Assembly: GCA_019636555.1 (NCBI GenBank) | Contig: JAHBXH010000001.1 | Location: forward strand, 2,638,928-2,702,927 | Source of the DNA: Phycisphaeraceae bacterium | GTDB taxonomy: Bacteria > Planctomycetota > Phycisphaerae > Phycisphaerales > UBA1924 | Reading direction: 5' to 3' | Length of the DNA: 64,000 nucleotides | Translations under genes and position numbers: made by a program | Notes under the pieces: model-generated | What the model saw: only the letters and a program-made list of their open reading frames with translations | The model's database searches: none | Told to the model about the DNA's origin: nothing | Shown: positions 19,475-38,492 of the stretch, piece by piece | Numbering within the stretch: position 1 is the stretch's first letter | Layout of the letters: each line of letters starts with the position of its first letter

Positions 19475-19476
19475 GC

Positions 19477-20861: not shown

Positions 20862-23075
20862 ATGCAACGTCTCGAAGGTCTTTCCAAACTCTCCGGTGTA
20901 GAGCGCTACCTCGACGACGAACCGCTCGAAGGTCCACTCAAAGGATGCCTCTGGGGCATGACCGTGCGCTCCCCGGCCTCTCGAGGGAAAATCCGATCGG
21001 TCTCGTACGACCCGGCATTCGACTGGTCTCAGTTCGTCGTGGTCGAGCCGTGCGACATCCCCGGCCCGAACGAAACCTACCTGATTGAGAACGACCAGCC
21101 GGTTCTCGCCCCCGGATATGTGCGCCACATGCACGAGCCCGTCGCTCTGATTGCTCATCCCGATCGTGCTCTGCTCCGGCGTGCCGTCGCTTCTGTCAAA
21201 GTCGAGATAGAGCCAGATCCGCCCGTACTCGATTTTCGCGTCGCGCCCCGCCCAGATCAGATCCAGCGCGGCAACGACAACATCATCAAAAAACTTCAGA
21301 TCAAAAAGGGCGACGTCCACGCCGCCTTCGCCCGCGCGCACAGAATCATCGAAGGCGAATACGAGACCGGGGGACAGGAACACGTCTACATCGAAAACAA
21401 CGCGATGTCCGCGTGGATCGAAGATGGCCCGAACGGTGACGTCGTTGTCGTCCGGGGCTCGATGCAGTGCCCGTACTACGTCCTCAACGCGCTCAAGCAC
21501 GCGCTCAAACGCGATGAATCCCGCGTCCGCGTCATCCAGGCCCCGACCGGCGGCGGCTTCGGGGGCAAGGAAGACTACCCCTCCACCATCGCGCTTCACT
21601 GTGCTCTACTCGCACTCAAAGCCCGCCGCCCCGTCAAGATCATCTACGACCGTTCCGAAGACATGGCCGCGACTCCCAAGCGCCATCCTTCTCTCGTGCG
21701 TCACAAAACCGCCGTCGACAAAAACGGCAAGCTTCTTGCTCAGTACATCGAAGTCATCCTCGATGGCGGCGCATACGTCACGCTTTCTCCCGTCGTGCTC
21801 TCCCGCGGCATCATCCACGCCGCGGGACCCTACTCCTGCGACAATGTGCTGATCGAGGGCAAAGCCGTTCTTACCAACAGCGTTCCCTACGGCGCTTTCC
21901 GAGGCTTCGGCGCGCCGCAGACGATTTTCGCCTGCGAACGCCACATGGACCGCATCGCGCACGCGCTCGGGCTCGATCCGCTCGAAGTCCGACGCATCAA
22001 CCTCATCAAAGACGGACAAACAACCTCCACGCAGCAAACAATTTCCGACGGCACCGACCGCCACGCGCTCCTCGATGCAGCGCTGCGCGCGTCCGAATAC
22101 GATCGCCACAAACGCGAGTCCGCCGCGTTCAACGCTTCGCATCCTTATCTCCGCCGCGGCATCGGCCTCTCAACCGTGCTCCACGGCGCCGGCTTCACCG
22201 GAAACGGCGAGGTGTACCTCAACTCCAAGGTCGATGTCGGCGCCACGCCCGACGGCAAGATTGAAGTGCTCGCCGCTAGCACCGAGATGGGGCAGGGAAC
22301 CAACACCGCGTTCACCAAGATCGCGGCGGACGCCGCGGGTTTCGTCCCGTCCGATGTCGTCATCGGCACGCCCGACACGTTCCGCGTTCCCAATTCCGGC
22401 CCCACCGTTGCCTCGCGCACCGTCATGGTCGTCGGAAAACTCATCGAACGGGCGATCGACGATCTTGCCTCACAACTCGGTCAGAACGGTAAACCGCTCC
22501 GAGGCCCCGTGCTCAAAGCTGCCATAACTCAGTGGCATGCCGCCAATCCCGGCAAGGAACTCAAGGGCCGCGCTACCTACGCCCCGCCGCCCAACGTGAA
22601 GTTCGACGACAAGAACTACGTCGGCGATGCTTACGCCACCTTCGCGTGGGGCGTCTGCATCGCCCATGTCGAGGTCGATCTTCGAACCGCATCGGTCCGC
22701 CTCCTCGATTTCACTTCGATGCAGGACATCGGCAAGGTCATCAACCCCGTGCTCGCCAAAGGTCAGGTGCAGGGTGGTGTCGTTCAGGCCATCGGCTGGG
22801 CGCTCTCCGAGGACATCAAGTTCAAAGACGGTGGCATGCTCAACAACACGCTCACCAATTACATCATCCCCACCTCGGACGATGTTCCGCCCATCCGCGT
22901 CGTCTTTCACGAGACTCCGTATCGCTTCGGTGGCGGCGGCGCCAAAGGCGTCGGCGAACTGCCGATGGATGGCCCCGCGCCCGCGATCCTCAACGCGGTC
23001 GCCAACGCCACCTGCGCCCAGGCGATGTCCATTCCTCTCACACCCGAGCGCCTGCTCCCACTCCTGCCCGCCTAG
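20862..23075 (+). CDS. xdhA: Xanthine dehydrogenase, molybdenum-binding subunit
   Basis: 737 aa, close to E. coli XdhA. Aldehyde oxidase/xanthine dehydrogenase a/b hammerhead domain (about 10-125) followed by the molybdopterin-binding domains: GGGFGGKED (230-238), GAFRGFGAPQ (344-353), AASTEMGQGTNTAF, and the catalytic Glu in GAKGVGELPMDG near the end. It hydroxylates hypoxanthine to xanthine and xanthine to urate. The substrate call rests on context: the Fe-S and FAD subunits follow, and uricase, allantoinase and adenine deaminase are in the same locus. The gene order Mo, Fe-S, FAD, xdhC, mocA resembles a reordered B. subtilis pucABCDE set. No Shine-Dalgarno sequence is visible. Confidence 0.92.
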   Translation: MQRLEGLSKLSGVERYLDDEPLEGPLKGCLWGMTVRSPASRGKIRSVSYDPAFDWSQFVVVEPCDIPGPNETYLIENDQPVLAPGYVRHMHEPVALIAHPDRALLRRAVASVKVEIEPDPPVLDFRVAPRPDQIQRGNDNIIKKLQIKKGDVHAAFARAHRIIEGEYETGGQEHVYIENNAMSAWIEDGPNGDVVVVRGSMQCPYYVLNALKHALKRDESRVRVIQAPTGGGFGGKEDYPSTIALHCALLALKARRPVKIIYDRSEDMAATPKRHPSLVRHKTAVDKNGKLLAQYIEVILDGGAYVTLSPVVLSRGIIHAAGPYSCDNVLIEGKAVLTNSVPYGAFRGFGAPQTIFACERHMDRIAHALGLDPLEVRRINLIKDGQTTSTQQTISDGTDRHALLDAALRASEYDRHKRESAAFNASHPYLRRGIGLSTVLHGAGFTGNGEVYLNSKVDVGATPDGKIEVLAASTEMGQGTNTAFTKIAADAAGFVPSDVVIGTPDTFRVPNSGPTVASRTVMVVGKLIERAIDDLASQLGQNGKPLRGPVLKAAITQWHAANPGKELKGRATYAPPPNVKFDDKNYVGDAYATFAWGVCIAHVEVDLRTASVRLLDFTSMQDIGKVINPVLAKGQVQGGVVQAIGWALSEDIKFKDGGMLNNTLTNYIIPTSDDVPPIRVVFHETPYRFGGGGAKGVGELPMDGPAPAILNAVANATCAQAMSIPLTPERLLPLLPA

Positions 23076-23081
23076 CACGCA

Positions 23082-23585
23082 ATGCAGCATCAAGCCGGCA
23101 ACATCTCCAAGACCGGTCGTTCCGCGACGATTCCAATCCGTTTCAATCTGAACGGACAGAAAGTCGAGATCGCAGTCGACCCGACCGAGCGCCTTCTCGA
23201 CACGCTCCGCTACCGCCTCAATCTGCCCGGCACAAAGGAAGGCTGCGGCGAGGGCGAATGCGGAGCCTGCTCAGTCATCATCGACGGCCTGCCCGCCAAT
23301 TCCTGCCTCGTTCCGACCTTTCAAGTCCGAAATCGAATCGTCCGCACTATCGAGTCGATCCCCGCTTCATCTCTTCAGCCGATGCTCGAAACCGGCGCCA
23401 CCCAGTGCGGCGCCTGCACCCCCGGTGTCGTCGTCACCGCGAACTGGATCAAAGAGAACTCCGGCGTGCTCGCTTCACACTCGATGCGTGCGCTCATGGC
23501 CGGCAATCTCTGCCGCTGCACCGGATACGACGGCATCATCGACGGGCTCGAGAAGTGGCTCGGGCGTGACGGAGGACGCTCATGA
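23082..23585 (+). CDS. Xanthine dehydrogenase, [2Fe-2S] subunit
   Basis: 167 aa. Plant-type ferredoxin cluster CGEGECGACSV plus a distal Cys (NSCL), then the second cluster domain with CGACTPG and NLCRCTGY. All eight cluster cysteines are present. Transfers electrons from the molybdenum centre to FAD. Seven bases after xdhA and overlapping the FAD gene by 4 bp. Equivalent to PucE of B. subtilis and XdhC of E. coli; the latter name is avoided here because the accessory protein downstream belongs to the XdhC family. Confidence 0.95.
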   Translation: MQHQAGNISKTGRSATIPIRFNLNGQKVEIAVDPTERLLDTLRYRLNLPGTKEGCGEGECGACSVIIDGLPANSCLVPTFQVRNRIVRTIESIPASSLQPMLETGATQCGACTPGVVVTANWIKENSGVLASHSMRALMAGNLCRCTGYDGIIDGLEKWLGRDGGRS

Positions 23586-24457
23586 ACGTCCTCATGCCCA
23601 CGTCACTCTCCGAAGCCTGCGCGTTCTGTGCCAAGCAGCCGGATCTGATCCCGCTCGCGGGCGCGACCGATTTGCTCGTGCATTGGCCCATCCACCCAGC
23701 CGAACACGACAAATCTTATCTCGATCTTTCTCACGTACAGGAACTCCGCACAATCGGTTGGGCATCGGGCACGCTCACGCTCGGCGCGCTCGCGACTTAC
23801 TGGGATGTCCTGCAAGATGGCAGAGCAAAGTCCGAGTTTCCCTTGCTCCTCGAAGCCGCGCGACAAGTCGGCGCCATCCAGATCCAGTCCCGCGGCACAT
23901 GGGCGGGCAATATCGCGAACGGGTCCCCCGCCGCCGACGGCGTGCCAGTGCTCATGGCGTACGACGCATCCGTCACGCTCACTTCCGCCGGCGGCTCTCG
24001 CTCGGTCCCGCTGCACGAGTACTACACCGGCTACCGAAAGTCCGTGCGACGCCCGGATGAACTGATCTCCGCGATTTCGATGCCCATCCGCAAGTACGAT
24101 TTTTCCGTCTTCCACAAGGTCGGCGCTCGCCGCGCACAAGCGATTACAAAGATCGGCGTCGCCATCACACGCGAGTCTGAAGCCCCCTCCCTGGGGGAGG
24201 GGGTTGGGGGAAGGGAGAATTTCCACCCCTGGCGCGTCGTCGCGAACAGCGTCTCCGCGACCGTGAAGCGCTGCACCGCGGTCGAGCAACTGCTGCAATC
24301 GAATTCGCCCGTTCGAAAGCCCGAAGATTTTCTGCCCGCCCTCGCGAGCGACGTCTCCCCGATCGACGACATCCGCTCGACCGCCGACTACCGACGCACA
24401 GTGCTCGCCCGGCTTCTCTACCATTCTCTCCGGAACGTCGCACCCGCCGTGACCTGA
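23582..24457 (+). CDS. xdhB: Xanthine dehydrogenase, FAD-binding subunit
   Basis: 291 aa, similar to E. coli XdhB (292). FAD-binding motifs: IPLAGATDLLVHW near residue 20 and QIQSRGTWAGNIANGSPAADG near 100 (the T-x-G-G-N-I-x-N-x-S-P region), then the CO dehydrogenase flavoprotein C-terminal domain. Passes electrons from the Fe-S centres to NAD or another acceptor. It contains an in-frame palindromic repeat (24182-24208) that adds a Gly-rich loop (APSLGEGVGG) in the C-terminal domain; the frame is kept. Overlaps the Fe-S gene by 4 bp. Confidence 0.92.
   Translation: MNVLMPTSLSEACAFCAKQPDLIPLAGATDLLVHWPIHPAEHDKSYLDLSHVQELRTIGWASGTLTLGALATYWDVLQDGRAKSEFPLLLEAARQVGAIQIQSRGTWAGNIANGSPAADGVPVLMAYDASVTLTSAGGSRSVPLHEYYTGYRKSVRRPDELISAISMPIRKYDFSVFHKVGARRAQAITKIGVAITRESEAPSLGEGVGGRENFHPWRVVANSVSATVKRCTAVEQLLQSNSPVRKPEDFLPALASDVSPIDDIRSTADYRRTVLARLLYHSLRNVAPAVT
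24182..24208. repeat. Palindromic repeat inside a coding sequence
   Basis: CCCCCTCCC (24183-24191), loop TGG, GGGAGGGGG (24195-24203), then TTGGGGG. The same 9-bp stem and TTGGGGG tail occur at 27675-27702. Here it lies in frame in the FAD subunit gene. Confidence 0.8.
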
Positions 24458-24461: not shown

Positions 24462-25313
24462 ATGGACGAAGACCGCCTCATTCTCCGCACGGCCGCCGAA
24501 CTCGCCGAAGCCGGTGAAGAGTTCGTCCTCATCACCGTGACCCGCACGCAGGGAAGCACGCCCCGCGCCGCCGGCACCAAGATGATCTGGAGGCCGCACC
24601 CGGCCGACGCGCCCGCGAGAGAGTCCGCCGCGCTTCCCAACAGTTCATTCGGCACCATCGGAGGCGGACAATTCGAGCACCTCGTACTCGAGGCCGCGCG
24701 CGAGTGCCTGCGAAAGCGCACCCATCTGACCGAGCGGTTTGTACTCGGCGCCGAGGCCGAGCAGTGCTGCGGCGGCGTCATGGAAGTCTTCCTCGAATAC
24801 CACGGCAGCCCGGCGCGTGTCGTCATCTTCGGCGCCGGGCATGTCGCGCAATCGCTCTCGCAAATCCTCGCTCCTACTCCGCTCGCCGTTTCGATCGTCG
24901 ATGATCGCCCCGAATGGAATTCGGCCGAGCGCTACCCCGGCGCGCAGCGAATCACCGACTGGTCGCAAGGAATCGACGCTGCGACAAGTCAGCCGGAGTC
25001 CACGCTCGCGCTCGTGATGACCTGCTCGCACGACACCGACTTCAAAATCCTTCGAGGCCTGCTGCGAGAGACGCTCCCGGCTTTCACCGGACTCATCGGC
25101 TCAAAGAGCAAGCGCGCCTGCCTCTTCGGCCGGCTCATCGCCGCCGGAATCGATGAATCTCTCGTGCGCCGCGTCCGCTGTCCGATCGGCGTCGGCGATA
25201 CCGGCAAGGAACCGCACGCCGTCGCCATCTCGGTCGCGGCACAATTGCTCCTCGAAGCGCGCGCCCTAAGCCGCACCGCTCTTCCCGCCGATGCACGCTC
25301 CGCGAAAGCATGA
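24462..25313 (+). CDS. xdhC: XdhC/CoxI family accessory protein for xanthine dehydrogenase maturation
   Basis: 283 aa. N-terminal XdhC/CoxI domain (VTVTRTQGSTPRAAGTKM near residue 25-43, TIGGGQFEH near 65, EQCCGG near 100) and C-terminal Rossmann domain (VVIFGAGHVAQSL near 128, TGLIGSKSKR near 215). The family binds and sulfurates the molybdenum cofactor before it is inserted into xanthine dehydrogenase. The CGG of E-Q-C-C-G-G is the conserved Cys region. It starts 4 bp after the FAD subunit gene and overlaps mocA by 4 bp. Equivalent to PucA. Confidence 0.93.
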   Translation: MDEDRLILRTAAELAEAGEEFVLITVTRTQGSTPRAAGTKMIWRPHPADAPARESAALPNSSFGTIGGGQFEHLVLEAARECLRKRTHLTERFVLGAEAEQCCGGVMEVFLEYHGSPARVVIFGAGHVAQSLSQILAPTPLAVSIVDDRPEWNSAERYPGAQRITDWSQGIDAATSQPESTLALVMTCSHDTDFKILRGLLRETLPAFTGLIGSKSKRACLFGRLIAAGIDESLVRRVRCPIGVGDTGKEPHAVAISVAAQLLLEARALSRTALPADARSAKA

Positions 25314-25912
25314 ACACTCCGGCGCTGATTCTCGCGGCAGGAAAGGGCTCCCGGATGGGAACCCCCAAAGCGCTGATGATGTGTGCCGATCGACCGTGGT
25401 GGGAAATCCAGGCGACTCGGCTCCGCGAAGCCGGAATCACAGCGCGCTGGGTCGTTTCACCTGAAGTGCTCGCCCGGCTAGATTCCGGCGTCATCGGACC
25501 GGGAGATTTGATCAAGTCCGATTCCTCCCTCCCGATGTTCGCGAGCGTCCGCACCGGCATCGATTCATTCCGGGCGAGCCCGCCCGATGGTGTCTACATC
25601 CTCCCGATTGATGTCCCCGCCTCGCGCCAGGGCGCGCTCTGGCGCTCGCTCCGAGGTGCCCCCGCGCCGGTCGCGCCTCTTTTCGAGGGCAAGAAGGGTC
25701 ATCCGATTTATGTTCCGTGGACGTGGATCACATCGACATTCGATCCCGCCGTTGCCGCCGCAAAGAAGCCGAATCAGTTGCGGCTGGATGAATTGCTCCG
25801 TCCCTCTCTGCTCGAAATCTCCGTGAACGATCCCGTGGTTGCGTGTAATCTGAACACGCCGGACGATCTTCGCCGCTTTCTTGAATCGCCGACCTCGGGA
25901 CTATCCGCGTGA
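25310..25912 (+). CDS. mocA: MobA/MocA-like molybdenum cofactor nucleotidyltransferase
   Basis: 200 aa. NTP-transferase signature ALILAAGKGSRMGTPKAL at the N-terminus, LPIDVPA for metal binding, and a C-terminal NLNTPDDLRRF typical of MobA/MocA proteins. The position between xdhC and ade, as pucB in B. subtilis, suggests CTP transfer to make the cytosine dinucleotide form of the cofactor. MobA (GTP) cannot be excluded by motifs alone. Overlaps xdhC (ATGA) and ade (GTGA), so translation is coupled. Confidence 0.8.
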   Translation: MNTPALILAAGKGSRMGTPKALMMCADRPWWEIQATRLREAGITARWVVSPEVLARLDSGVIGPGDLIKSDSSLPMFASVRTGIDSFRASPPDGVYILPIDVPASRQGALWRSLRGAPAPVAPLFEGKKGHPIYVPWTWITSTFDPAVAAAKKPNQLRLDELLRPSLLEISVNDPVVACNLNTPDDLRRFLESPTSGLSA

Positions 25913-27672
25913 GTTCTGCTTCCACATCTCTCCCCGCCGGGCCGATCACGCCCGAATTGCTCGCGGTCGCGCGGGGCGATGCGCCCACCGATCTGCTGCT
26001 CTCAAACGCCAAGGTGATCAATGTCTTCAACCGCTCGATCGAGTCGGCCAGCGTCGCGATCCATCGGGATCGCATCGCCGGAGTCGGGGACTACGCCGCG
26101 GGCAAGGAAGTCATCGACCTCAAGGGCGCCTTCGTCGCGCCCGGCTTCATCGATGCCCACATGCACGTCGAATCGACCAGCCTCCCGCCGTCGCAATTCG
26201 TAAGGCTCGCTCTCCCGCACGGCACGACCGGCGTCGTCCTCGACCCGCACGAAATCGCCAACGTGCTCGGCATCCCCGGCATCCGCTACATCATGGACGA
26301 CGCGGCCGATCTGCCCATCAACGCCATGTTCGCGCTCTCGTCGTGCGTTCCTTCTTCCCACCTCGAGACTTCGGGCGCTCGCCTCGAGGCATCCGATCTG
26401 GCTCCCCTCTTCGACGATCCGCGTGTCGTCGCGCTCGCCGAGATGATGAACTTCCCCGGCGTCGTTCACGCCGATCCGAATGTGCTCGCAAAGATCAATC
26501 TGGGCCTCGATCGCCGCATCGTCGACGGCCATTCTCCCGGATTGAAAGGCAAGCCGCTCCAGGCCTACATCGCCGCGGGCATCTCTTCCGATCACGAGTG
26601 CACCACCGCAGCCGAAGCGCTCGAAAAGCTCTCCCGCGGCATGCGCATCTACATCCGGGAAGGAAGCGCCGCGCGAAATCTCGAAGCACTGCTCCCCGCC
26701 GTCAAGCCCGAAACCCTCGCTCGCTTCTGCTTCTGTACCGACGATCGCCACCCCGGCGACCTCGCCGACGAAGGTCACATCGATCACATCGTGCGAAAAG
26801 CCATCGCGCTCGGGCTCGACCCGATCGCCGCGATCACGATCGCGACGCTCAACCCCGCGATGCACTACCGCCGACGCGATCTCGGCGCGATCGCTCCCGG
26901 CTATTTCGCCGATCTCATCGTCTTCGATGATCTTCGCGAGCCGCGACCTCGCCAGACCTATTTCCATGGACGGTTGACCGCAAGAGACGGCGTCTTTGTG
27001 GATGCGGCCATGCCCCCGTCGCCGCGCCCCAAACCGCCGGTCTCACCGCTCCGGCTTCCAGCGCTCTCGGAAGATTCGTTCGCGATTCCTGCCAAGTCCG
27101 GCACGCAGCAGATCCGCGTCATCGGAATGGACCCGCACCAGCTTCTGACGACGAATCTCATCATGCCGCCGAAAGTCATCGACGGCAAGTATGTCGCCGA
27201 TGTCTCGCGCGACCTGCTGAAACTCTGCGTCGTCGAGCGCCACCGCGCCAGCGGCAACATCGGCCGCGGATTCATCACCGGCTTCGGCCTCAAGGAAGGC
27301 GCGATCGCTTCCACCGTCGGTCACGATTCGCACAACCTCGCCGTGCTCGGCACGAACGACGCCGACATGCTCGCCGCGGCACGCGCGCTCGAAGCCTGCG
27401 GCGGAGGCCAGTGCGCCGTGCGAAACGGAAAAGTTCTCGCCCTCTTCCCGCTCCCCATCGCCGGCTTGATGTCCGATCAGCCGGCGACGATTGTGATTCA
27501 GCAGCAACGCGCCCTCATGGCCGCGGCACAATCCCTCGGTTGCCCGCACCACGATCCCTTCATGCCCCTCTCGTTCATGCCGCTCCCCGTCATCCCTTCG
27601 CTCAAACTCTCCGATCTCGGACTCGTGGATGTCGACCAGTTCAGGGTCGTCCCCCTCGAAGTGCCTCTCTGA
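25909..27672 (+). CDS. ade: Adenine deaminase
   Basis: 587 aa, the usual length. Amidohydrolase with metal site FIDAHMHVES (His-x-His), PHEIANVLG, VDGHSPGLKG, DHECTT and TDDRHPGDL, the pattern of Ade-type adenine deaminases (adenine to hypoxanthine plus ammonia). The C-terminal domain is intact through VGHDSHN. It starts with GTG 25909 overlapping the mocA stop, so it belongs to the same operon and supplies hypoxanthine to xanthine dehydrogenase. A hairpin and T run follow directly. Confidence 0.95.
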   Translation: MSSASTSLPAGPITPELLAVARGDAPTDLLLSNAKVINVFNRSIESASVAIHRDRIAGVGDYAAGKEVIDLKGAFVAPGFIDAHMHVESTSLPPSQFVRLALPHGTTGVVLDPHEIANVLGIPGIRYIMDDAADLPINAMFALSSCVPSSHLETSGARLEASDLAPLFDDPRVVALAEMMNFPGVVHADPNVLAKINLGLDRRIVDGHSPGLKGKPLQAYIAAGISSDHECTTAAEALEKLSRGMRIYIREGSAARNLEALLPAVKPETLARFCFCTDDRHPGDLADEGHIDHIVRKAIALGLDPIAAITIATLNPAMHYRRRDLGAIAPGYFADLIVFDDLREPRPRQTYFHGRLTARDGVFVDAAMPPSPRPKPPVSPLRLPALSEDSFAIPAKSGTQQIRVIGMDPHQLLTTNLIMPPKVIDGKYVADVSRDLLKLCVVERHRASGNIGRGFITGFGLKEGAIASTVGHDSHNLAVLGTNDADMLAAARALEACGGGQCAVRNGKVLALFPLPIAGLMSDQPATIVIQQQRALMAAAQSLGCPHHDPFMPLSFMPLPVIPSLKLSDLGLVDVDQFRVVPLEVPL

Positions 27673-27747: not shown

Positions 27748-29217
27748 ATGAAAACCACACTCAGTGCATCCGCTCTCTCTCCCACACTCTCGCAGCTCGC
27801 GACATCCAACTCCGCCTATGCCAAGGTCTATCCGGGCGAACCGATCGATCGCCAGCCCGTGCACACGATCTACGGAGGCGGGCACCTTTTCAAGAAAGAC
27901 ACCGCCCGCCGTCTCGGCGATGTCGCGCTCGCGTCTCTCCGCGACTACGCCCCGGACTTCGCGACCTTCGCCCGCGCGATCGGTCTCCGCGGCAGCGAAT
28001 CGCTCCCCGAAACCTCCGGCGCCGCCGCCGCAATCGACGCCGAGTTCCAGCGCGATCCTTCCGGTGCTGCAAAAGCGAACCCGCATGCCGCGTTTGCTCG
28101 CGTCGTCTACAACCGCGTCGTCGATAAACTCACCCGCGAACCCGCCGAAGATTTCCGCATCGACTTCGAAGATGGATACGGCGTGCGCACCGATGCGGAT
28201 GAAGATGCCCACGCCCACCAGGCCGCGCTCGAAACCGCGCTCGGCATGAAGGAGGGCACGCTGCCTCCCTTCATCGGAATCCGCATCAAGAATTTCGGCC
28301 CCGACACCCACGCCCGCGGCATCCGCACGCTCGACATCTTCCTCACCGCGCTCTCCGAAGCGACCGGCAAGAAACTCCCGCCCAATTTCGTGGTCATGCT
28401 CCCCAAGCTCGTCTCGGCACAGCAGGTCGCGACAATGGTCGAAATTCTCGAGCAATTCGAAAAAGCAGGGCTCTTTCCCGTAGGCTCACTCAAGATGGAG
28501 TTCATGGTCGAGACGACGCAATCGGTGATCGACACGCGAGGCATCTGCCCGCTCCCCGATTTCGTGCGCGCATCCAAAGGCCGCTGTATCGCCGCGGCGC
28601 TCGGCGTTTACGACTACACCGCGAGCGTCGGCGTCACCGCGCAGGAACAAAAGATCGATCACCGGGCCTGCGATTTCGCGCGCCACGTGATGCAGGTCTC
28701 TCTCGGCGCAACCGGCCTTTATCTCTCCGACGGCGCGACCAACATCATGCCAAGCGCTCTGCATGTCGCCCCCGAAGGCGGCGCGCTCACGCCGCAGCAG
28801 ACCACCGAGAACCGCAGCGCCGTTCACTCCGCCTGGAAACTCAACTTTGCACACGTCCGCCGCTCGCTCGCACACGGCTGGTACCAGGGCTGGGATCTCA
28901 ACCCGGCGCAGCTCCCGATCCGCTACGCCGCGGTCTACTCGTACTTTCTCGAATACCTGCCCGACGCGACCGCCCGCCTCCGCAACTTCGTCGAGAAGGC
29001 CGCACGCGCAACTCTCGTGCGCGGAGCCGGCGGCGCGGGAGGCGGCAGCGTCTTCGATGACGCCGCAACCGCGCAGGGCCTGCTCACGTTCTTCATCCAG
29101 GGTGTGCGCCGCCAGGCGATCAGCCCGCAGGAACTCGCCGCAACCGGCTTGACGACCGATGAAATCCGCATGCGCTCGTTCATCGAGATCCTGCGCAAGC
29201 GCAGCGGCATCAAATAG
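27748..29217 (+). CDS. CitE/HpcH-like TIM-barrel protein (DUF6986-like)
   Basis: 489 aa. The segment RQPVHTIYGGGHLFKKDTAR and the acidic motif FRIDFEDGYG (Asp-x-Glu-Asp, metal-binding in CitE and malate synthase G-like barrels), followed by IGIRIKNFG, VVMLPKLVS, KMEFMVETTQSV and CIAAALGVYDYTASVGV, match the citrate lyase beta/HpcH barrel order. It most resembles the family listed as DUF6986, which I recall next to uricase and allantoicase in actinobacteria. No activity is established. Lies 75 bp after ade, convergent with uricase. A role in handling glyoxylate from ureidoglycolate (malate-synthase-like chemistry) is inference. No Shine-Dalgarno sequence; a TTTAAT lies about 30 nt upstream of ATG. 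Confidence 0.72.
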   Translation: MKTTLSASALSPTLSQLATSNSAYAKVYPGEPIDRQPVHTIYGGGHLFKKDTARRLGDVALASLRDYAPDFATFARAIGLRGSESLPETSGAAAAIDAEFQRDPSGAAKANPHAAFARVVYNRVVDKLTREPAEDFRIDFEDGYGVRTDADEDAHAHQAALETALGMKEGTLPPFIGIRIKNFGPDTHARGIRTLDIFLTALSEATGKKLPPNFVVMLPKLVSAQQVATMVEILEQFEKAGLFPVGSLKMEFMVETTQSVIDTRGICPLPDFVRASKGRCIAAALGVYDYTASVGVTAQEQKIDHRACDFARHVMQVSLGATGLYLSDGATNIMPSALHVAPEGGALTPQQTTENRSAVHSAWKLNFAHVRRSLAHGWYQGWDLNPAQLPIRYAAVYSYFLEYLPDATARLRNFVEKAARATLVRGAGGAGGGSVFDDAATAQGLLTFFIQGVRRQAISPQELAATGLTTDEIRMRSFIEILRKRSGIK

Positions 29218-29235: not shown

Positions 29236-30087
29236 TCACTTCCGCTCGATCGTCGCCTCGATCAATCCGTACGGCTCATCGGTCGGGACGAAAATCTCGT
29301 TGGGGTTTTCCATCCCGAACGGCTTGAGATTCACGAGCAGGCAGTGGATGTTCGGCAGGCTCAGCCGGATGTTGCCGATCGATTCGCACCGATCGATCGC
29401 GGCTTTCCCCATCGCGAACAGCGTCTGTTGCACCGATTCGCTCTTGTGATCGGCGAACGTCTCGATGATCGCACCGCGGATCCGCTCCCGCGCCGCGCCG
29501 AAATCCGCGCGCTCCGAGGTGTACTTCCAGTTCGCTGTCACGCTCGTCGCAAAGATCCGATCGCGCGTCTCGGGCAACGTGGTGTACGCATCCTTCAGGT
29601 ACCCCGAGAACGCCGAGTCGGTCGACTTGAGCACAAGCAGCTTCTCGATTCCCCCCGCAGCGCCGATCGCGCCGCCCCGATCAAACGACACTTCGCACGT
29701 TTGCCTTTCTTCCGTTCCCTTCGTGAACGCGTGCGGATGCTCGCGACCGTTGATCGTCATCCGCTCCCACGGCACCTGCGCGATGCGCACCCGCGCGCGC
29801 TGCACCGGTGCTGTTTTCTCGACGAAGTGCTTTGCGAGATGCATCGCGAAGCCCTCGATCGTGTCGAGCGGATGATTCTTTCCGAGCGCGTAGACCGTGT
29901 TCTTCATCGTGTCGGTAGGAAGACACTTGGAGTTGTCGCCCGCGAGGTGGATCGCATCGAAATCTCCCTCGAGCGCGATGTCGACACTGATCTCGCGCAC
30001 GGTGTGCTTCGCACCGTCGCGCGAGACTTTGACCAGCCGGACCTTGCTCTTGCCGTAGTTGTTGACGCCCAGCACCGCGCTCATCAT
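29236..30087 (-). CDS. uaZ: Urate oxidase (uricase)
   Basis: 283 aa. Cofactor-free T-fold oxidase that converts urate to 5-hydroxyisourate. Signature segments: YGKSKVRLVKV (active-site Lys), LAGDNSKCLPTDTMKNTVY (Thr-Asp-Thr), TGLLVLKSTDSAFSG-type segment seen here as LLVLKSTDSAFSGY (with Phe for urate stacking), and LPNIHCLLVNL (Asn/His region). ATG 30087 is chosen: GGAGA lies 5 nt upstream and a second ATG follows at once. Last gene of the allB-alc-uraD-uraH-uricase operon, 46 bp after the HIU hydrolase gene. Confidence 0.95.
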   Translation of the reverse strand: MMSAVLGVNNYGKSKVRLVKVSRDGAKHTVREISVDIALEGDFDAIHLAGDNSKCLPTDTMKNTVYALGKNHPLDTIEGFAMHLAKHFVEKTAPVQRARVRIAQVPWERMTINGREHPHAFTKGTEERQTCEVSFDRGGAIGAAGGIEKLLVLKSTDSAFSGYLKDAYTTLPETRDRIFATSVTANWKYTSERADFGAARERIRGAIIETFADHKSESVQQTLFAMGKAAIDRCESIGNIRLSLPNIHCLLVNLKPFGMENPNEIFVPTDEPYGLIEATIERK

Positions 30088-30133
30088 CACATCTCCTGCA
30101 TCTTGTACACCGCGCTGCATCCCGCGCTGCGCC

Positions 30134-30478
30134 TTACGTTCCCCTGTACGTGCTGTATCCGAACGGGCTCACCAAGAGCGGCACGTGGTGATGACGCGCC
30201 GAATCCACAACCCGGAACACGACGGTCACGCTCGGAAAAAAAGTCGTCACGCCCGACTTGGCGAAGTACGCCTCGGTTTCGAACGTGAGTCGGTAGGTCG
30301 CGAGTTCGAGTGAACGCCCGCTGGAAAGAAGCGACTTCGCCCGCCCGTCGGCATCGGTTCTTCCTTCGCCGAGCTTCTCCCAGCTTCCCGGCGCGGCCTC
30401 TCGCTCGAGCACTACGCGCACGTCAACGCCGGGCGTGCCTTTCGAAGTGTCGAGTACATGTGTGCTGATTCCGCTCAT
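30134..30478 (-). CDS. uraH: 5-Hydroxyisourate hydrolase (transthyretin-like)
   Basis: 114 aa. ISTHVLDTSKGTPG at the N-terminus (active His), LTFETEAYF in the middle, HHHVPLLVSPFGYSTYRGT at the end, the C-terminal Y-R-G-T/S tetrapeptide that marks the enzyme rather than transthyretin. Hydrolyses 5-hydroxyisourate to OHCU. ATG 30478 overlaps the uraD stop (ATGA); longer frames upstream are shadow. Confidence 0.96.
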   Translation of the reverse strand: MSGISTHVLDTSKGTPGVDVRVVLEREAAPGSWEKLGEGRTDADGRAKSLLSSGRSLELATYRLTFETEAYFAKSGVTTFFPSVTVVFRVVDSARHHHVPLLVSPFGYSTYRGT

Positions 30479-31014
30479 GATTCCACCAGCTTTTCCAGCC
30501 TGATCCGGACGATCCTGCTCTGCTCCTGTGCCGCGTTCTTGAGTTCGGTCGCGCCGTCGTTGCTCATGCGTTTTTTCAGACTGTCCAGCATTTCCTGACC
30601 GGTTTTTCCGGTTGCGCAGATCAGAAAAACGTGGCCGAACTTTTTCTCGTACTTCTCGTTTCCTTCGGCGAATTCCGCTCTCACCCGCTCGCTCGCGCCG
30701 GCCATGCCGCTTTGTTCTTTCGAGCTCTGCGTGGCGGTTGCGGCGAATTTCGCTTGTGCGAGATTGCGCTCGCCGATGCGCGGGTGATGCGAGAACGCCT
30801 CGAGCCAATCCTTTGTTTCGAGGCCGAACCAGACGCGGTCGGCCTCTGCGAAGAGTTTACCAGAATCGGCGAAGGGCCGCAAGCTGAGCATTTGGTCTAC
30901 CCACTTGCACGAACCGCACACGGAATGCAGCGCGGCACGCGCGGATTGCTCATCCATCGCGTTCAATTTCGCGAGCCCCGTTGTAGCGCCTGATTGGAAT
31001 TGAGCATCTGCCAC
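30475..31014 (-). CDS. uraD: OHCU decarboxylase
   Basis: 179 aa. All-helical decarboxylase giving S-allantoin. Key segments: HPRIGER (active-site His-Pro and Arg), SSKEQSGM, FLICATGK and RMSND near the end. Starts with GTG 31014, 6 bp after the allantoicase stop; overlaps uraH by 4 bp. With uricase and uraH it completes the urate-to-allantoin step. Confidence 0.95.
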   Translation of the reverse strand: MADAQFQSGATTGLAKLNAMDEQSARAALHSVCGSCKWVDQMLSLRPFADSGKLFAEADRVWFGLETKDWLEAFSHHPRIGERNLAQAKFAATATQSSKEQSGMAGASERVRAEFAEGNEKYEKKFGHVFLICATGKTGQEMLDSLKKRMSNDGATELKNAAQEQSRIVRIRLEKLVES

Positions 31015-31020: not shown

Positions 31021-32049
31021 CTACTCCGTGATTCCAAAGAGTCGAAGTCGGCTGATGCCGCCATCGGGGAAGATTTTCAATCGCGCGTGCGTGCAGGACT
31101 TCCCGGCGGCGCGGAGTTCGCTTTCGTAGAAATGCTGTTCGCTCGCTCGCAGCTTGGTTCGCGGGAGCAGCGTCTCCCACTGCTGCAACGCGGGATCGAA
31201 AGCATCGCCCGCGCGCGCATCGCAGATCTCGATTTCGCAGCTCTCGGGGAAGTTGCCCTTGAAGTGATTGGTATCGACTTCCACTTTTTGGACTCTGCCT
31301 CGGTGGCCAAGCTGCACGATGCACCAATCGAACTCGCCGCCTTTGAGCCCGCGCTTGCGGCGGGTTTCCCAGCCGTCGCCCATGTTGGCGCTGCGGCCGG
31401 GCATGATCAGATTGTGGCGCGAGCCGAAGTGCATGTCGTTGCAGGCGATCACGAGCGCGCCGTTTTCCGCGCCGGCGAGATCGACCACTTTGCCTCGGAG
31501 CGCCTGCCAATCCGGGAGGACGGTTCCGTGCACGCGGAAGCGCGCGACGCCTCCATCGGGGAAGATGTTGAGGCGGACGTGCGTGAAGCGCTTGCCGCCT
31601 GCGGCGTCATTCGCGGGGATCAGGTGTTCGCTGTCGGGATTGAGCGTGGCGCGATCGGTCACCTGGACCCAGCGCGTGTCGGGGGAGAGGAGGCGATCAA
31701 CGCCCGGGTCGCCGTCGATCTCGACCGCTTCGACGGTGCAACTCTCGGGCTGATTGCCCTTGAAGTGTCCGGTGTCCACGTTGACGCCCCGGATGATGCC
31801 GGGTCTGCCGAGCGCGATGATGCACCAATCGTGCCCGGCGACGCGCTTGCGCCGGCTTTCCCAGCCGTCCATCCACTTGCCGAATTCGGTGTACTTGTCG
31901 GCGATCCAGATCGCGCGACCCGGCTTGAGCAGGTTTTCCTTGCCCGCGAAGAACTCGTCGCTGGCGATGAGCGCTTTGCCGCCCATCCGCGCCGACGCCA
32001 GGTCGATGAGATCGGAAAAGTCTGCTACGCCCGCGATCGCTTGACCCAT
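31021..32049 (-). CDS. alc: Allantoicase
   Basis: 342 aa with the expected two repeated jelly-roll halves: each half contains DxHFKGNxPESC (DTGHFKGNQPESC and DTNHFKGNFPESC), GWETRRKR or GWESRRKR, and a final H-x-R-L-x-I-F-P-D-G-G motif. Hydrolyses allantoate to ureidoglycolate and urea. It starts 25 bp inside the 3' end of allB, so translation is probably coupled. No ureidoglycolate lyase is seen in the window. Confidence 0.96.
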   Translation of the reverse strand: MGQAIAGVADFSDLIDLASARMGGKALIASDEFFAGKENLLKPGRAIWIADKYTEFGKWMDGWESRRKRVAGHDWCIIALGRPGIIRGVNVDTGHFKGNQPESCTVEAVEIDGDPGVDRLLSPDTRWVQVTDRATLNPDSEHLIPANDAAGGKRFTHVRLNIFPDGGVARFRVHGTVLPDWQALRGKVVDLAGAENGALVIACNDMHFGSRHNLIMPGRSANMGDGWETRRKRGLKGGEFDWCIVQLGHRGRVQKVEVDTNHFKGNFPESCEIEICDARAGDAFDPALQQWETLLPRTKLRASEQHFYESELRAAGKSCTHARLKIFPDGGISRLRLFGITE

Positions 32050-33443
32050 CTTCCGGTTGCCTCTTTCGCGAATGCACGCCCGCCATCGAGCCCCGAGCCG
32101 AAGCGAATATTGCCGCTCGAAAACACCTGTTTTCCTCGGATGAATGTCGCGTGCACAACACCTTTCACGTTCCGCCCATCATACGGCGTGGCCTTGTGGC
32201 GATGTTCGAGTTCGCTGCCGCGGATGGTCCACTCGGCTTCGGGATCAACAACGATCAGATCGGCATCCAGGCCGGGCGCGATCTTGCCTTTTTGATCTTC
32301 GATGCCCGCGAGCTTCGCGGGGGCTTCGCACATCCAGCGCGCGAGATCGACGAGTGTTCCGCCGCGCGATTGGGCGCCGGCCCACACCGCCGGGAACTGA
32401 GCCTGCAGGCCCGCGATTCCGCCCCATGCTTTGGCAAAGTTGCCCTCCTGAAGGCTCTTGAGTTCGGCGGGGGCGGGCGAGTGGTCGGAAGCGATGAGGT
32501 CGAGCGTGCCATTTTCAAGGGCGCGCCAGAGCGCTTCGCGGTGCGCGGATTCGCGGATGGGCGGCGCGCACTTGAACTCGGTCGCGCCGTCGGCGATTTC
32601 CTCTGACGCGAAAGAGAGGTAGTGCGGGCAGGTCTCAGCGGTGAAGCCGCGGAGTGATTCCTTTGCGCGCGCAATCGGTGCGATGGAATCTCCCGACGAA
32701 ACATGGACGATGTGCGTGCGACAGCCGGTCTGGCGGCACAGCTCGACCATCATCTCGATCGCGCGGGTTTCGGAGATCGAGGGGCGCGAAGCGAGATACT
32801 TGCGGTAGCTGCGCGGATCGGACTCGAGCCCGCTGGGCCCGCGCGCGGCCTCGATCGCGGGCGGGTCTTCCGCGTGCACAAGCAAAGCGCCGGCGTGCGC
32901 GCCATCGCGGAGGGCCGCGATCAGCGGCATCGCCGACTCGAGATCGCGGCGCGTGACGTTCGGAAACTCATCGATTCCGGAGTGGATCGTGAAACACTTG
33001 AAGCCGAGCACCCCGGCGTTCCAGAGTTTCTCCAGTTCGCCGGTGTTGCCGGGAACCACACCACCCCAGAATCCAAAGTCGCAGGCGCACGTCCCCGAAG
33101 CGGACCGAAGTTCGCCCTCGAGCGCTTCGACGCTGGTCGCGACGGGCGAACAGTTCAGCGGCATCACGATGATTGTGGTGACGCCCCCGGAAACCGCGGC
33201 CTTGCCGGCGCTCGCGAAGCCTTCCCATTCGGTGCGACCCGGCTCGTTCACGTGCACGTGGGCATCGACGAGTCCGGGCATCAGGGCGAGTTGCCCGATA
33301 TCGATCGAGCGGATGCCCTGCGGCGGGTTGCGGCCGGCGCGGACTTCCGCGATGCGCTCGCCACGCACAATCACCGTCGCGGGGGCGATTGCTCCATCGC
33401 GCACGACGCGCTCGCTGAAAATCGCGAAGGGTTCTTCGTTCAC
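32025..33443 (-). CDS. allB: Allantoinase
   Basis: 472 aa cyclic amidohydrolase. Zinc site DAHVHVNEPGRTEWEGF, likely carboxylated Lys in LGFKCFTIHSG, HAEDP, HIVHVSSGD, ETCPHYL and DHSPAP. Opens allantoin to allantoate. Dihydropyrimidinase or dihydroorotase is less likely given the E-P-G-R-T-x-x-E-G segment and the neighbours. The start is GTG 33443; TATTCT ends 6 nt before it and there is no Shine-Dalgarno sequence, so the operon mRNA may be leaderless. First gene of the allB-alc-uraD-uraH-uricase operon, divergent from moaA. Confidence 0.95.
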   Translation of the reverse strand: MNEEPFAIFSERVVRDGAIAPATVIVRGERIAEVRAGRNPPQGIRSIDIGQLALMPGLVDAHVHVNEPGRTEWEGFASAGKAAVSGGVTTIIVMPLNCSPVATSVEALEGELRSASGTCACDFGFWGGVVPGNTGELEKLWNAGVLGFKCFTIHSGIDEFPNVTRRDLESAMPLIAALRDGAHAGALLVHAEDPPAIEAARGPSGLESDPRSYRKYLASRPSISETRAIEMMVELCRQTGCRTHIVHVSSGDSIAPIARAKESLRGFTAETCPHYLSFASEEIADGATEFKCAPPIRESAHREALWRALENGTLDLIASDHSPAPAELKSLQEGNFAKAWGGIAGLQAQFPAVWAGAQSRGGTLVDLARWMCEAPAKLAGIEDQKGKIAPGLDADLIVVDPEAEWTIRGSELEHRHKATPYDGRNVKGVVHATFIRGKQVFSSGNIRFGSGLDGGRAFAKEATGRWVKRSRA

Positions 33444-33596: not shown

Positions 33597-33617
33597 GCCC
33601 GCATCGGGCCGGCCCTG

Positions 33618-33623
33618 TACGAT
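33618..33623 (+). promoter_or_regulatory. -10 box of a possibly leaderless moaA promoter
   Basis: TACGAT, 6 nt (CGTGGC) before GTG 33630. Same box and GTGAC start as moaC and mnmA. Confidence 0.5.
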
Positions 33624-33629
33624 CGTGGC

Positions 33630-34709
33630 GTGACACCCCGCCCGCACTCGCTGCCGCTGCTGAAGGACTTGCCGCTGAGTGCGGCGCCGCGCGCCGATGC
33701 GGGGGAGGCTCGGGAACTGCGGGATTCGCACGGACGCACGATCCACGACCTGCGTCTTTCGATCACCGATCGCTGCAATTTCCGCTGCATCTACTGCATG
33801 GAGCCGGATGTCCGTTTCTTTGCGCGCGAGCAACTTCTTTCGGTTGATGAACTTGTTCGCGTCGCATCGATCTGCGAGTCGCTGGGGATTCGGCGGCTGC
33901 GGTTGACCGGTGGCGAGCCGACGCTGAGGCCGGAGCTGGACGAGATCATCGAGCGGGTCGGCGAATTGGCCTTCGACGATTTCTCGATGACGACAAACGG
34001 TTCGCTCATTGAGCCGGCGCGGCTGCGGCTGTGGAAGGCTTCGGGATTGACGCGCCTGACGTTCAGCCTCGACAGCGCGGACGAAGCGACGTTTGCCTCG
34101 ATGACGCGTTCGCGTTCGAAGATCTCGGATGTCTTCGGTGCGATCGCGGCGGCAAACGTAGCGGGGCTCGGGCCGGTCAAGGTCAACGCGGTGGTGATGC
34201 GGGGGAAGAATGAGGATCAGATGGCGAGGCTCGCGCGGATTGCCGCGGAGGGCGGATTCGAGATGCGGTTTATCGAATTCATGCCGCTTGATTCAGGGCA
34301 CGCATGGAACCGGGCGCTGCTGGTGCCGGCATCGGAAATCCTGGAACTGCTGCGGGGAGAGGGAGACATCACGGCGCTCGATCGCGCGCGGCCGAGCGAA
34401 ACGGCGGAGACGTTTCTGTTCACGCCCCGAGGTTCGCGGCATACCGCACGCATCGGGATCATCGCGCCGGTCACACGCTCATTCTGCGGCAGTTGTTCGC
34501 GACTGCGCATCACGGCGGACGGCAAGGTTCGGCCGTGTCTCTTCAGCCTGCGCGAGTTCGATGTGCGGTCTTTGCTGCGTTCGAATGCGGAGGACGCGAT
34601 ACTTGAGCAATTCCTGATCGATGCAACGTGGACAAAGCAGGCGGGGCACGGAATTTCGTCGCCGGATTTTGAGCAGCCTTCCAGACCGATGTCCGCGATC
34701 GGGGGGTAA
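33630..34709 (+). CDS. moaA: GTP 3',8-cyclase MoaA
   Basis: 359 aa. Radical SAM enzyme that begins molybdenum cofactor synthesis by rearranging GTP. N-terminal 4Fe-4S motif CNFRCIYC (Cys49, 53, 56), LTGGEPTLR, MTTNGSL, and the C-terminal second cluster FCGSCSRLRITADGKVRPC. Ends in Gly-Gly, as active MoaA does. The frame is open back to 32703 but only the part from GTG 33630 shows MoaA sequence. No Shine-Dalgarno sequence. MoaC, its partner, lies 3 kb downstream on the same strand. Confidence 0.96.
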   Translation: MTPRPHSLPLLKDLPLSAAPRADAGEARELRDSHGRTIHDLRLSITDRCNFRCIYCMEPDVRFFAREQLLSVDELVRVASICESLGIRRLRLTGGEPTLRPELDEIIERVGELAFDDFSMTTNGSLIEPARLRLWKASGLTRLTFSLDSADEATFASMTRSRSKISDVFGAIAAANVAGLGPVKVNAVVMRGKNEDQMARLARIAAEGGFEMRFIEFMPLDSGHAWNRALLVPASEILELLRGEGDITALDRARPSETAETFLFTPRGSRHTARIGIIAPVTRSFCGSCSRLRITADGKVRPCLFSLREFDVRSLLRSNAEDAILEQFLIDATWTKQAGHGISSPDFEQPSRPMSAIGG

Positions 34710-34980
34710 GGCGTTCAACTCAAAGGGTTGAAAGACAGGAGAGAACGCGGAGTTGCGGAGTTTGCGGAGTTGCGCGGAGGGGAAGAAAAGAGAATAGATA
34801 GAAGAGACTGAGAGGAGACGAAAGGCAGTCAACTCAAAGGGCTCGAAGAGCTCAAAGTGTTGAAAGGCAGGAGAGAACGCGGAGTAGCGGAGTCTGCGGA
34901 GTTGCGCGGAGCGGGGAAAGAGACGAGAGAAGAGAGACGAAGCGAAAGAAACGAAGAGGACTAAGGACGAGGAGAGGCGG
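34710..34980. repeat. GA-rich composite dispersed repeat, copies 2 and 3 (tandem)
   Basis: Two direct copies (34711-34825 and 34826-34980): TCAACTCAAAGGG, then GAGAGAACGCGGAG with three to four GCGGAGTTN units, then GAAGAGA-rich sequence. No gene is visible in this gap. Confidence 0.8.
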
Positions 34981-34985
34981 CACGC

Positions 34986-35771
34986 TCAGCGGGTGATGGC
35001 AATCGGTCGGCCTGGCTGAAGCGACAGGCGGATTCCTTCCCAGACGAGAGCGGTGCCGGCGACGACGAGGACGATTGCGAGCAGACGGCGGATTGTCTGG
35101 CCACCGAAGCGACGAGCGCCGAGGTAGGAACCGGCCAAGCCGCCCGCGGCGGCGGCGATGCACCACACCCAGATCTCGGAAGGTGGGTGCATGCCGCTCT
35201 TGATTGCGCCGGAGAGTCCGGCGATCGAGTTGACGAGGATAAAGAGCACGCTTGCCGCGGCGGTTTCCTTGGCGGTCGCCCAGCGGCAGAGCAGGAGGAG
35301 AGGGCTGAGGAAGATGCCGCCACCGGTGCCGGTCAAACCGGAGGCGAGACCGAGCGCGCCGCCCGCGCCGAGCGCGATGGGAATCGGGGGCGGGTGTGCC
35401 GCGGGTTCGTCGCGCTTGAGCGACCCGATCCACAACCGCCACGAACTGAAGAGGAGGATCGCACCGATAAGCGGCTTGTAAATCTCTGGGGGCAGATTCA
35501 CTGTGCCCCCGATGTATGCGAAGGGGACGGACATGAGCGCGAAGGGCCAGAACGATCGCCAGCGGAAGTGGCCCGCGCTTATGAACTGAACAGTGCCGAT
35601 CACGGCAACCACGATGTTCAGGGTCAAGGATGTCGGCTTCATCACTGCCGCCGACATCCCCCACAATCCCATCACGGTTAGATAGCCGGACGCGCCGGCG
35701 TGACCGACGGATGAATACAGAAAACCGACGAGAAGAAAGAGCGCACCGAGAATCCAGATGTCCGCGGTCAA
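34986..35771 (-). CDS. TauE/SafE family membrane permease
   Basis: 261 aa with about eight hydrophobic helices and the two-fold pattern of TauE/SafE (DUF81) proteins: SVGHAGASGYLTVM in the first half and LASGLTGTGGGIFLSPLLLL in the second. The family moves sulfite, sulfoacetate or other small anions. The start ATG 35771 overlaps the moaE stop by 4 bp, so it is the third gene of moaD-moaE-permease. Substrate cannot be assigned; a role tied to molybdenum cofactor or sulfur supply is inference from the coupling. Confidence 0.85.
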   Translation of the reverse strand: MTADIWILGALFLLVGFLYSSVGHAGASGYLTVMGLWGMSAAVMKPTSLTLNIVVAVIGTVQFISAGHFRWRSFWPFALMSVPFAYIGGTVNLPPEIYKPLIGAILLFSSWRLWIGSLKRDEPAAHPPPIPIALGAGGALGLASGLTGTGGGIFLSPLLLLCRWATAKETAAASVLFILVNSIAGLSGAIKSGMHPPSEIWVWCIAAAAGGLAGSYLGARRFGGQTIRRLLAIVLVVAGTALVWEGIRLSLQPGRPIAITR

Positions 35772-36211
35772 CGCTTGGCCTTTCGCTTGCTCTTCTTTTT
35801 CTTCGAGGGTGCAGGCGTTCTCGATCGGGCTTCGGCGAAGACGGGTTTCTTCCAGATTGGCACGTCGCGTTTCATGCGGTCGATGAATTCGCCGGTCGCT
35901 TCGAGCGCCTCGGCGCGGTGCGCGCTCTCCACGACAAGCCGGAATGAGACTTTGCCGACGCCCACTTTGCCCTTGCTGTGCCAGACCGAAACATCGAGCA
36001 CGCCGAACTCTTTCTGCATGGCCTCGGCGAGGAGCTGAAGCTGCTTGCTCGCCATGGGTTCGTAGACCTGATAGTCGAGTGAGCGGATTTTTTTTCCCGC
36101 TTCTTCGGCACGCACGACTCCTTCGAAAACGACGAACGCGCCGGTTCCTTTTCCGACCGCCAGGCGGGCCGGCTTGAGCGCGCCCCTCACGATTTCAACG
36201 TAGACGCTCAT
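35768..36211 (-). CDS. moaE: Molybdopterin synthase catalytic subunit MoaE
   Basis: 147 aa. MoaE signature: GAFVVFEGVVRAEEAGKKI, LDYQVYEPMA (Y-E-A-Y-like), VWHSKGKVGVG (H-R-x-G-x-v-x-x-G), RDVPIWKKP (V-P-I-W-K-K/E, active Lys). The C-terminus has an extra Lys/Arg-rich tail (KKKKSKRKAKR) that is not part of the usual fold. Transfers sulfur from MoaD thiocarboxylate to cPMP. Overlaps moaD (ATGA). Confidence 0.95.
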   Translation of the reverse strand: MSVYVEIVRGALKPARLAVGKGTGAFVVFEGVVRAEEAGKKIRSLDYQVYEPMASKQLQLLAEAMQKEFGVLDVSVWHSKGKVGVGKVSFRLVVESAHRAEALEATGEFIDRMKRDVPIWKKPVFAEARSRTPAPSKKKKSKRKAKR

Positions 36212-36441
36212 CCCCCGCTCACCATCCCGATCAGCGCCAGCTCGTCCTTCGAGCCGACGACTTCGTTTCCGGAGGCGAACGCGTGATTGACCGCGAGCCT
36301 CGCCCCCTTTAATTCGGGCCACTTGTCTTCCAGCACCCGCAGGATTTCTCGAGCGCGTGCCGGGCTGTTCACTTCGACCTCCACGCTCTCTCTCCCCAGC
36401 TTCGCCTGTTCGCTGCCGAATAGAAAGACTCGAACCTTCAT
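36208..36441 (-). CDS. moaD: Molybdopterin synthase sulfur carrier MoaD
   Basis: 77 aa ubiquitin-like protein: MKVRVFLFGSEQAKLG at the start and LALIGMVSGG at the end. The C-terminal Gly-Gly is the thiocarboxylate site. The length and overlap with moaE support the call. The start ATG 36441 follows TACACT by 6 nt and has no Shine-Dalgarno sequence. First gene of moaD-moaE-permease. No MoeB-type activating enzyme is seen nearby. Confidence 0.93.
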   Translation of the reverse strand: MKVRVFLFGSEQAKLGRESVEVEVNSPARAREILRVLEDKWPELKGARLAVNHAFASGNEVVGSKDELALIGMVSGG

Positions 36442-36447
36442 GGCTTC

Positions 36448-36453
36448 AGTGTA
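36448..36453 (-). promoter_or_regulatory. -10 box of a possibly leaderless moaD promoter
   Basis: TACACT on minus, 6 nt (GAAGCC) before ATG 36441. Confidence 0.5.
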
Positions 36454-36478
36454 ATGTCCCGTCTCCTGATTCGCGAAA

Positions 36479-37702: not shown

Positions 37703-37730
37703 GGGCGTGCGCCAGGCGCGGACCGCCTCG

Positions 37731-37736
37731 TACGAT
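37731..37736 (+). promoter_or_regulatory. -10 box of a possibly leaderless moaC promoter
   Basis: TACGAT, 5 nt (TGGGC) before GTG 37742. Confidence 0.5.
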
Positions 37737-37741
37737 TGGGC

Positions 37742-38224: not shown

Positions 38225-38231
38225 TGCCGAC

Positions 38232-38417: not shown

Positions 38418-38480
38418 GAAAGGACTTGCCGCGGGAAGGCGGGTTCTTGCAGCGGATTCTCAAGATTTGTCCCTTTGCTG

Positions 38481-38486
38481 TATCCT
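38481..38486 (+). promoter_or_regulatory. -10 box of a possibly leaderless mogA promoter
   Basis: TATCCT, 6 nt (GCCCTT) before ATG 38493. Confidence 0.5.
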
Positions 38487-38492
38487 GCCCTT

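Follow-up and report, generated by a model that had tools for sequence, protein, structure and literature searches.

Two enzyme families are known to convert ureidoglycolate to glyoxylate, namely AllA/DAL3 and the plant ureidoglycolate amidohydrolase UAH (PMC3793230, PMC6320678). AllA is nickel-dependent, and UAH, which belongs to a different family, acts by hydrolysis with the release of ammonia and CO2 (PMC3793230). In malyl-CoA lyase, from which the list of catalytic residues of its superfamily is taken, a D-x-E-D motif orients an arginine and holds two metal-bound waters (PMC3832036). The proteins described here, whose family is named only as a domain of unknown function, DUF6986 (PF22484), occur in uric-acid breakdown clusters, where they replace the usual last enzyme, which suggests that they are probably a second, unrelated solution for splitting ureidoglycolate. 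The family and the fold class were already known. The open-access literature searched yielded no mention of DUF6986, of the proposed function or of a role as a substitute for AllA, and no CitE-like protein tied to ureides.

The DUF6986 gene and its purine-breakdown locus

The open reading frame at 27748–29217 (+ strand) of the window, the whole stretch of 64,000 nucleotides that was analysed, encodes 489 amino acids and is a real gene. The preliminary description had singled it out as the unexplained gene between ade and uricase; it is now assigned to DUF6986, with 525.6 bits (E 1.1e-157; cut-off 27) over the full length of the PF22484 profile (positions 2–406 of 408). HpcH_HpaI is also matched, weakly (28.6 bits, over the cut-off). 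On the evidence of the reading frame, the Pfam match, the fold model and the conserved residues, the product is annotated as a predicted ureidoglycolate lyase. Among the matches listed, its closest named relatives are from Planctomycetota MAGs and are 84–89% identical.

The gene is the last of a plus-strand run, which comprises the molybdopterin subunit of xanthine dehydrogenase (20862–23075; MoCoBD_1/2, with pucD as the best NCBIfam match, below cut-off), its 2Fe-2S subunit (23082–23585; Fer2, Fer2_2) and FAD subunit (23582–24457; FAD_binding_5), the XdhC maturation factor (24462–25313; XdhC_CoxI, XdhC_C), a MobA-like nucleotidyltransferase probably involved in Mo-cofactor maturation (25310–25912; NTP_transf_3) and adenine deaminase, ade (25909–27672; TIGR01178, 597 bits, cut-off 472.5). 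The gap between ade and the DUF6986 gene is ~75 bp. A minus-strand run converges on these genes, leading from allantoinase (32025–33443; TIGR03178, 499.4 bits) through allantoicase (31021–32049; TIGR02961, 412.8 bits), OHCU decarboxylase (30475–31014; TIGR03180, 177.9 bits) and 5-hydroxyisourate hydrolase (HIUase; 30134–30478, with the start inferred and the frame open to 30808; TIGR02962, 128.9 bits) to uricase, the factor-independent urate hydroxylase (29236–30120; TIGR03383, 341 bits), with which the DUF6986 gene is convergent. Since both the xanthine dehydrogenase/ade run and the uricase-to-allantoinase run are present, the steps from adenine to ureidoglycolate are encoded at the locus, and the profile matches thereby bear out what had been read from the sequence before.

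Several other features of the window surround this locus. Directly after it, at 33600–38984, lie the molybdenum-cofactor genes MoaA, MoaE, MoeA, MoaC and a MoaB/MogA-like gene, which presumably serve the xanthine dehydrogenase of the locus. A TauE/SafE-type permease and an Asp/Glu racemase-family protein are encoded just past the ureide genes (34989–35771 and 41183–42058), and the open frames at 17290–20784 have N-termini that resemble, by eye, prepilin/pseudopilin leaders.

The source genome (3.8 Mb in 4 contigs, 95.6% complete) carries DUF6986 as a single copy. Searches of the whole genome gave 0 hits for malate synthase (PF01274), 0 hits for AllA ureidoglycolate lyase (PF04115) and no glyoxylate carboligase (Gcl, TIGR01504) at E <= 1e-100. 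The lack of malate synthase and ureidoglycolate lyase noted earlier for the window thus holds genome-wide, and an AllA or malate synthase overlooked outside the window was rejected. The window protein itself matches neither PF01274 (E <= 0.001) nor PF04115, so that its reading as a plain malate synthase relative was also rejected.

Fold and predicted active site

The AlphaFold2 model of the window protein has a mean pLDDT of 93.8. Its best solved match is the malyl-CoA lyase of R. sphaeroides (4l9y; Z 28.4, rmsd 2.2 Å for 295 residues), the superposition covering both the barrel and the C-terminal lid, and the second is human CLYBL (5vxc; Z 27.4); malate synthases H, A and G (3oyz, 3cv2, 1p7t) match at Z 24.1 to 20.8. 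The predicted fold is that of a CitE/malyl-CoA-lyase-like TIM barrel with a C-terminal lid hairpin, in line with the kinship to CitE/HpcH, CLYBL and malate synthase barrels suggested previously.

All the catalytic residues characteristic of CitE-like proteins are present, namely the D-x-E-D motif, the Arg, the Glu, the Asp and the lid Asp. The predicted catalytic residues are D139, E141, D142, R179, E255, D289 and D437/D438, together with a pocket formed by W382–P386; D139, E141, D142, R179, E255, D289 and D437 are invariant in all 91 DUF6986 sequences (91/91). The metal-binding Glu and Asp, the Arg and the lid Asp were equated by alignment, and D-x-E-D by its motif and its position on strand 2. 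The sequence DFEDGYG, which the preliminary description took to be metal-binding, is a genuine superfamily motif and the counterpart of D-x-E-D in malyl-CoA lyase, but the direct metal ligands are predicted to be E255 and D289, the D-x-E-D motif instead holding metal-bound waters. By the W-x-x-x-P pattern, W382 corresponds to Trp257 in the glyoxylate pocket of haloarchaeal malate synthase (HaloMS), and P386 to its Pro261, a proline that caps a helix in the adenine pocket of malate synthase and thus appears conserved. Because both W382 and P386 are conserved in the family, a CoA site is possible in DUF6986.

Gene neighbourhood and exchange with AllA

The 95 DUF6986 loci compared were taken from Planctomycetota, the 80 top-ranked loci in a scan of genomes, and plasmids; as the best 80 of the scan, these are the closest relatives of the query rather than a random sample, and the choice is biased accordingly. 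About two thirds of the 95 loci carry ureide genes: HIUase is found in 57, OHCU decarboxylase in 55, allantoicase in 49, allantoinase in 45, PuuD in 32 and uricase in 12, while AllA is found in none (0/95). HIUase lies within 400 bp of DUF6986 in 38 loci, 33 of them with both genes on the same strand. The DUF6986 gene typically stands directly after HIUase or beside allantoicase, the commonest gene order being puuD-alb-alc-uraD-uraH-DUF. This context extends over at least 13 phyla with names. The lineages that show it are Planctomycetota, Acidobacteriota, Bacteroidota, Myxococcota, Pseudomonadota, Fidelibacterota, Eiseniibacteriota, Balneolota, Melainabacteria/Cyanobacteriota, Bdellovibrionota, Gemmatimonadota, Chlorobiota, Ignavibacteriota, SAR324 and Actinomycetota. 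A chance neighbourhood was rejected, since the ureide link recurs across phyla and deep branches. The survey therefore came out strongly in favour of the link to ureide genes that had been suspected from this one locus, and neither finding that might have told against it, a lack of the ureide neighbourhood in other genomes or a malate synthase or AllA elsewhere in this one, was made. For about 26 copies, the stretch examined contains no ureide gene.

The most divergent branch of the family, that of the Actinomycetota (~30–36% identical by tblastn), keeps the ureide link. In Tsukamurella the DUF6986 gene overlaps that of ureidoglycine aminohydrolase, in Nocardia it precedes allantoicase, and in Gordonia it lies beside urease, on its 5′ side, with malate synthase G ~9 kb off. 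On the Gordonia plasmid p174 (8492–14844 of the locus examined), DUF6986 is flanked by a PaaI-type thioesterase on one side and the urease operon on the other, with malate synthase G near, in a gene order that may resemble a mycobacterial chromosomal neighbourhood. In a SAR324 locus (643–9692 of L099), from a genome without allantoicase, DUF6986 adjoins a ureidoglycine-aminohydrolase-like gene, an aminotransferase akin to the glyoxylate aminotransferases and, by eye and with no NCBIfam match, a look-alike of the oxamate carbamoyltransferase large subunit. In a spirochaete the neighbour is malate dehydrogenase.

Among 294 Planctomycetota genomes, 11 have allantoicase over cut-off, 11 have full-length DUF6986 and 10 have both (Fisher p ~1e-16, a statistic that ignores phylogeny). 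The genome with allantoicase and no DUF6986 was rejected as a counter-example, because its contig stops just after uraH, at the DUF6986 slot. Among 398 Pseudomonadota genomes, allantoicase is present in 31, all of which (31/31) have AllA, and a real DUF6986 occurs in only one of these, that of Ketobacter. When the 61 genomes with DUF6986 (source genome included) are considered, 50 have allantoicase and 11 have none; in the 50, AllA is absent from 43, weakly and partially matched in 3 and well matched in 4 (Ketobacter, Sorangium, Corallococcus and Myxococcus). The Ketobacter operon reads alb-alc-uraD-uraH-AllA, so that AllA occupies the slot taken by DUF6986 elsewhere, and the DUF6986 of Ketobacter lies in another cluster. 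DUF6986 and AllA thus replace each other, in a contrast that is confounded by shared ancestry because it is drawn between phyla. The AllA homologues of Sorangium, Corallococcus and Myxococcus are distant from allantoicase, and in Myxococcus and Corallococcus DUF6986, too, is outside the ureide cluster.

Seven copies (L059, L061, L062, L066, L074, L083 and L092), from three Accumulibacter, Ketobacter, a gammaproteobacterium and two Chloroflexota, lie inside clusters of the ethylmalonyl-CoA pathway. Their neighbours are crotonyl-CoA carboxylase/reductase (Ccr) and an ethylmalonyl-CoA-type (Ecm-like) mutase, as well as the acyl-CoA dehydrogenase Mcd, mesaconyl-CoA hydratase (Mch) or MeaB. They are 49–53% identical to the window protein with identical catalytic residues, and in a quick tree they form one clade (support 100) nested among ureide-linked copies. 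The joint signature of the clade is H303, T325, T332, N434 and T435, several of these positions lying close to strand 7 and to the catalytic hairpin. Although N332T and V435T both mark the clade, they were rejected as a simple residue switch between the ureide and ethylmalonyl-CoA contexts; N332T is not diagnostic, because T332 is also found in some ureide-linked and unlinked copies. Either the substrate has changed in this clade, or the true reaction of the family is that of glyoxylate with acetyl-CoA.

Predicted reaction and comparison with known enzymes

Ureidoglycolate, HO-CH(COO-)-NH-CO-NH2, and malyl-CoA, HO-CH(COO-)-CH2-CO-SCoA, have the common skeleton HO-CH(COO-)-X-C(=O)-, in which X is NH or CH2. 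On the analogy with malyl-CoA lyase, the chemistry and the gene context, we consider it somewhat probable that DUF6986 is a Mg2+-dependent ureidoglycolate lyase, non-homologous to AllA, which completes purine breakdown in bacteria without AllA. It would convert (S)-ureidoglycolate, supplied by allantoicase or ureidoglycine aminohydrolase, to glyoxylate and urea. The α-hydroxy acid would be bound by Mg2+, with E255 and D289 as ligands and waters held by E141 and D142, and R179, oriented by D139, would accept or stabilise the hydroxyl proton. Cleavage of the bond to the ureido nitrogen would follow that of the C-C bond in malyl-CoA, by a metal-held retro-aldol reaction, and the lid aspartate D437 or D438 would protonate the leaving group, with the release of urea. 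Glyoxylate would be formed from either substrate, the group that leaves being urea (X = NH) or acetyl-CoA (X = CH2).

The complementarity with AllA, the adjacency to enzymes that make ureidoglycolate and the slot swap in Ketobacter are the reasons why ureidoglycolate is favoured as the substrate. The preliminary description had proposed glyoxylate or ureidoglycolate, leaning towards glyoxylate plus an acyl-CoA; its general proposal agrees with the ureide link and the co-occurrence with allantoicase, but ureidoglycolate is now preferred, and the leaning stays alive because the ethylmalonyl-CoA-linked clade exists. That clade tells against a ureidoglycolate lyase, since ureidoglycolate makes no sense in those clusters, and if its members catalyse the same reaction as the rest of the family, the lyase assignment fails. 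The ~26 copies without a ureide gene, the 11 of 61 genomes without allantoicase and the spontaneous decay of ureidoglycolate (PMC3793230) also count against it.

It is possible, though rather unlikely, that DUF6986 is an acyl-CoA enzyme resembling malate synthase or malyl-CoA lyase that condenses glyoxylate with acetyl-CoA, the glyoxylate coming from purine breakdown or the ethylmalonyl-CoA pathway and ureidoglycolate decaying alone or being processed by another enzyme. The well-supported clade of seven would then be explained by glyoxylate as the intermediate common to its pathway and ureide breakdown, and the malate dehydrogenase neighbour in the spirochaete would fit as well. All catalytic residues of malate synthase and malyl-CoA lyase are conserved together with W382 and P386, and Y288, before the metal Asp, is closer to the malate synthases (Leu/Trp) than to the malyl-CoA lyases (Ala). 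Gcl over the TIGR01504 cut-off occurs in 0 of the 61 DUF6986 genomes and malate synthase is absent from 39 of them, absences that are better explained by a glyoxylate-consuming enzyme. However, a canonical malate synthase also occurs in 16 of the 50 genomes that combine DUF6986 with allantoicase and in five of the six genomes tested from the ethylmalonyl-CoA group, and two Accumulibacter ethylmalonyl-CoA clusters already contain an Mcl1 homologue. Condensation of glyoxylate would, moreover, leave unexplained the mutual replacement of DUF6986 and AllA and the Ketobacter swap. The replacement of AllA, together with the actinobacterial copies by ureidoglycine aminohydrolase, allantoicase or urease (in Gordonia with malate synthase G close by), leads us to favour cleavage of ureidoglycolate.

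Two further explanations are improbable. DUF6986 might act on another C2 or C3 acid, e.g. oxalurate or tartronate semialdehyde, or have a regulatory role, the ureide link reflecting co-regulation; the SAR324 context, with its aminotransferase and the carbamoyltransferase look-alike, would suit this idea, as would Myxococcus and Corallococcus, where DUF6986 is apart from the ureide clusters and AllA is also present. The nearly one-to-one correspondence with allantoicase, like the complementarity with AllA, points instead to the ureidoglycolate step, and the full catalytic set is invariant. Least probable of all, one active site might perform two steps, splitting ureidoglycolate and joining the bound glyoxylate to acetyl-CoA to give urea and malate (or malyl-CoA), in which case DUF6986 would stand in both for AllA and for malate synthase or Gcl, and the ethylmalonyl-CoA clade, later recruited to that pathway, would have retained the second half only. 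Both half-reactions would share a single Mg2+/Arg-bound glyoxylate site, and 32 genomes with allantoicase and DUF6986 lack AllA, malate synthase and any Gcl over cut-off; yet 11 with allantoicase and DUF6986 but no AllA do have malate synthase, and no precedent is known.

If DUF6986 is a ureidoglycolate lyase, it would be a third, widespread family leading from ureidoglycolate to glyoxylate, and in many phyla it would supply the final missing step in the recycling of purine nitrogen. The active site of a C-C lyase would have been re-used for C-N bond cleavage, and PF22484 would gain a directly testable function.

Compared with malyl-CoA lyase (4l9y) and CLYBL (5vxc), DUF6986 has the same barrel and C-terminal lid, and shares with them the D-x-E-D motif, the Arg, the Glu, the Asp and the lid Asp, at only ~18% identity. 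Unlike them, it possesses a long helical stretch inserted between strands 1 and 2 (residues ~50–134), Tyr288 in place of Ala before the metal Asp, and an invariant Asp383 after the pocket Trp. The barrel and the metal site are also common to malate synthases A, G and H (Z 20.8–24.1), and there are weak matches to their profile, PF01274, among DUF6986 proteins, but the window protein does not match it, and both families coexist in 22 of the 61 genomes. UAH (EC 3.5.3.19) likewise leads from ureidoglycolate to glyoxylate, as is predicted for DUF6986. AllA/DAL3 (PF04115, EC 4.3.2.3), the fold of which is a cupin, has the reaction predicted for DUF6986 and the same slot in the operon; given the different fold (barrel versus cupin) and the lack of a PF04115 match, the relation between the two is one of analogy and not of homology.
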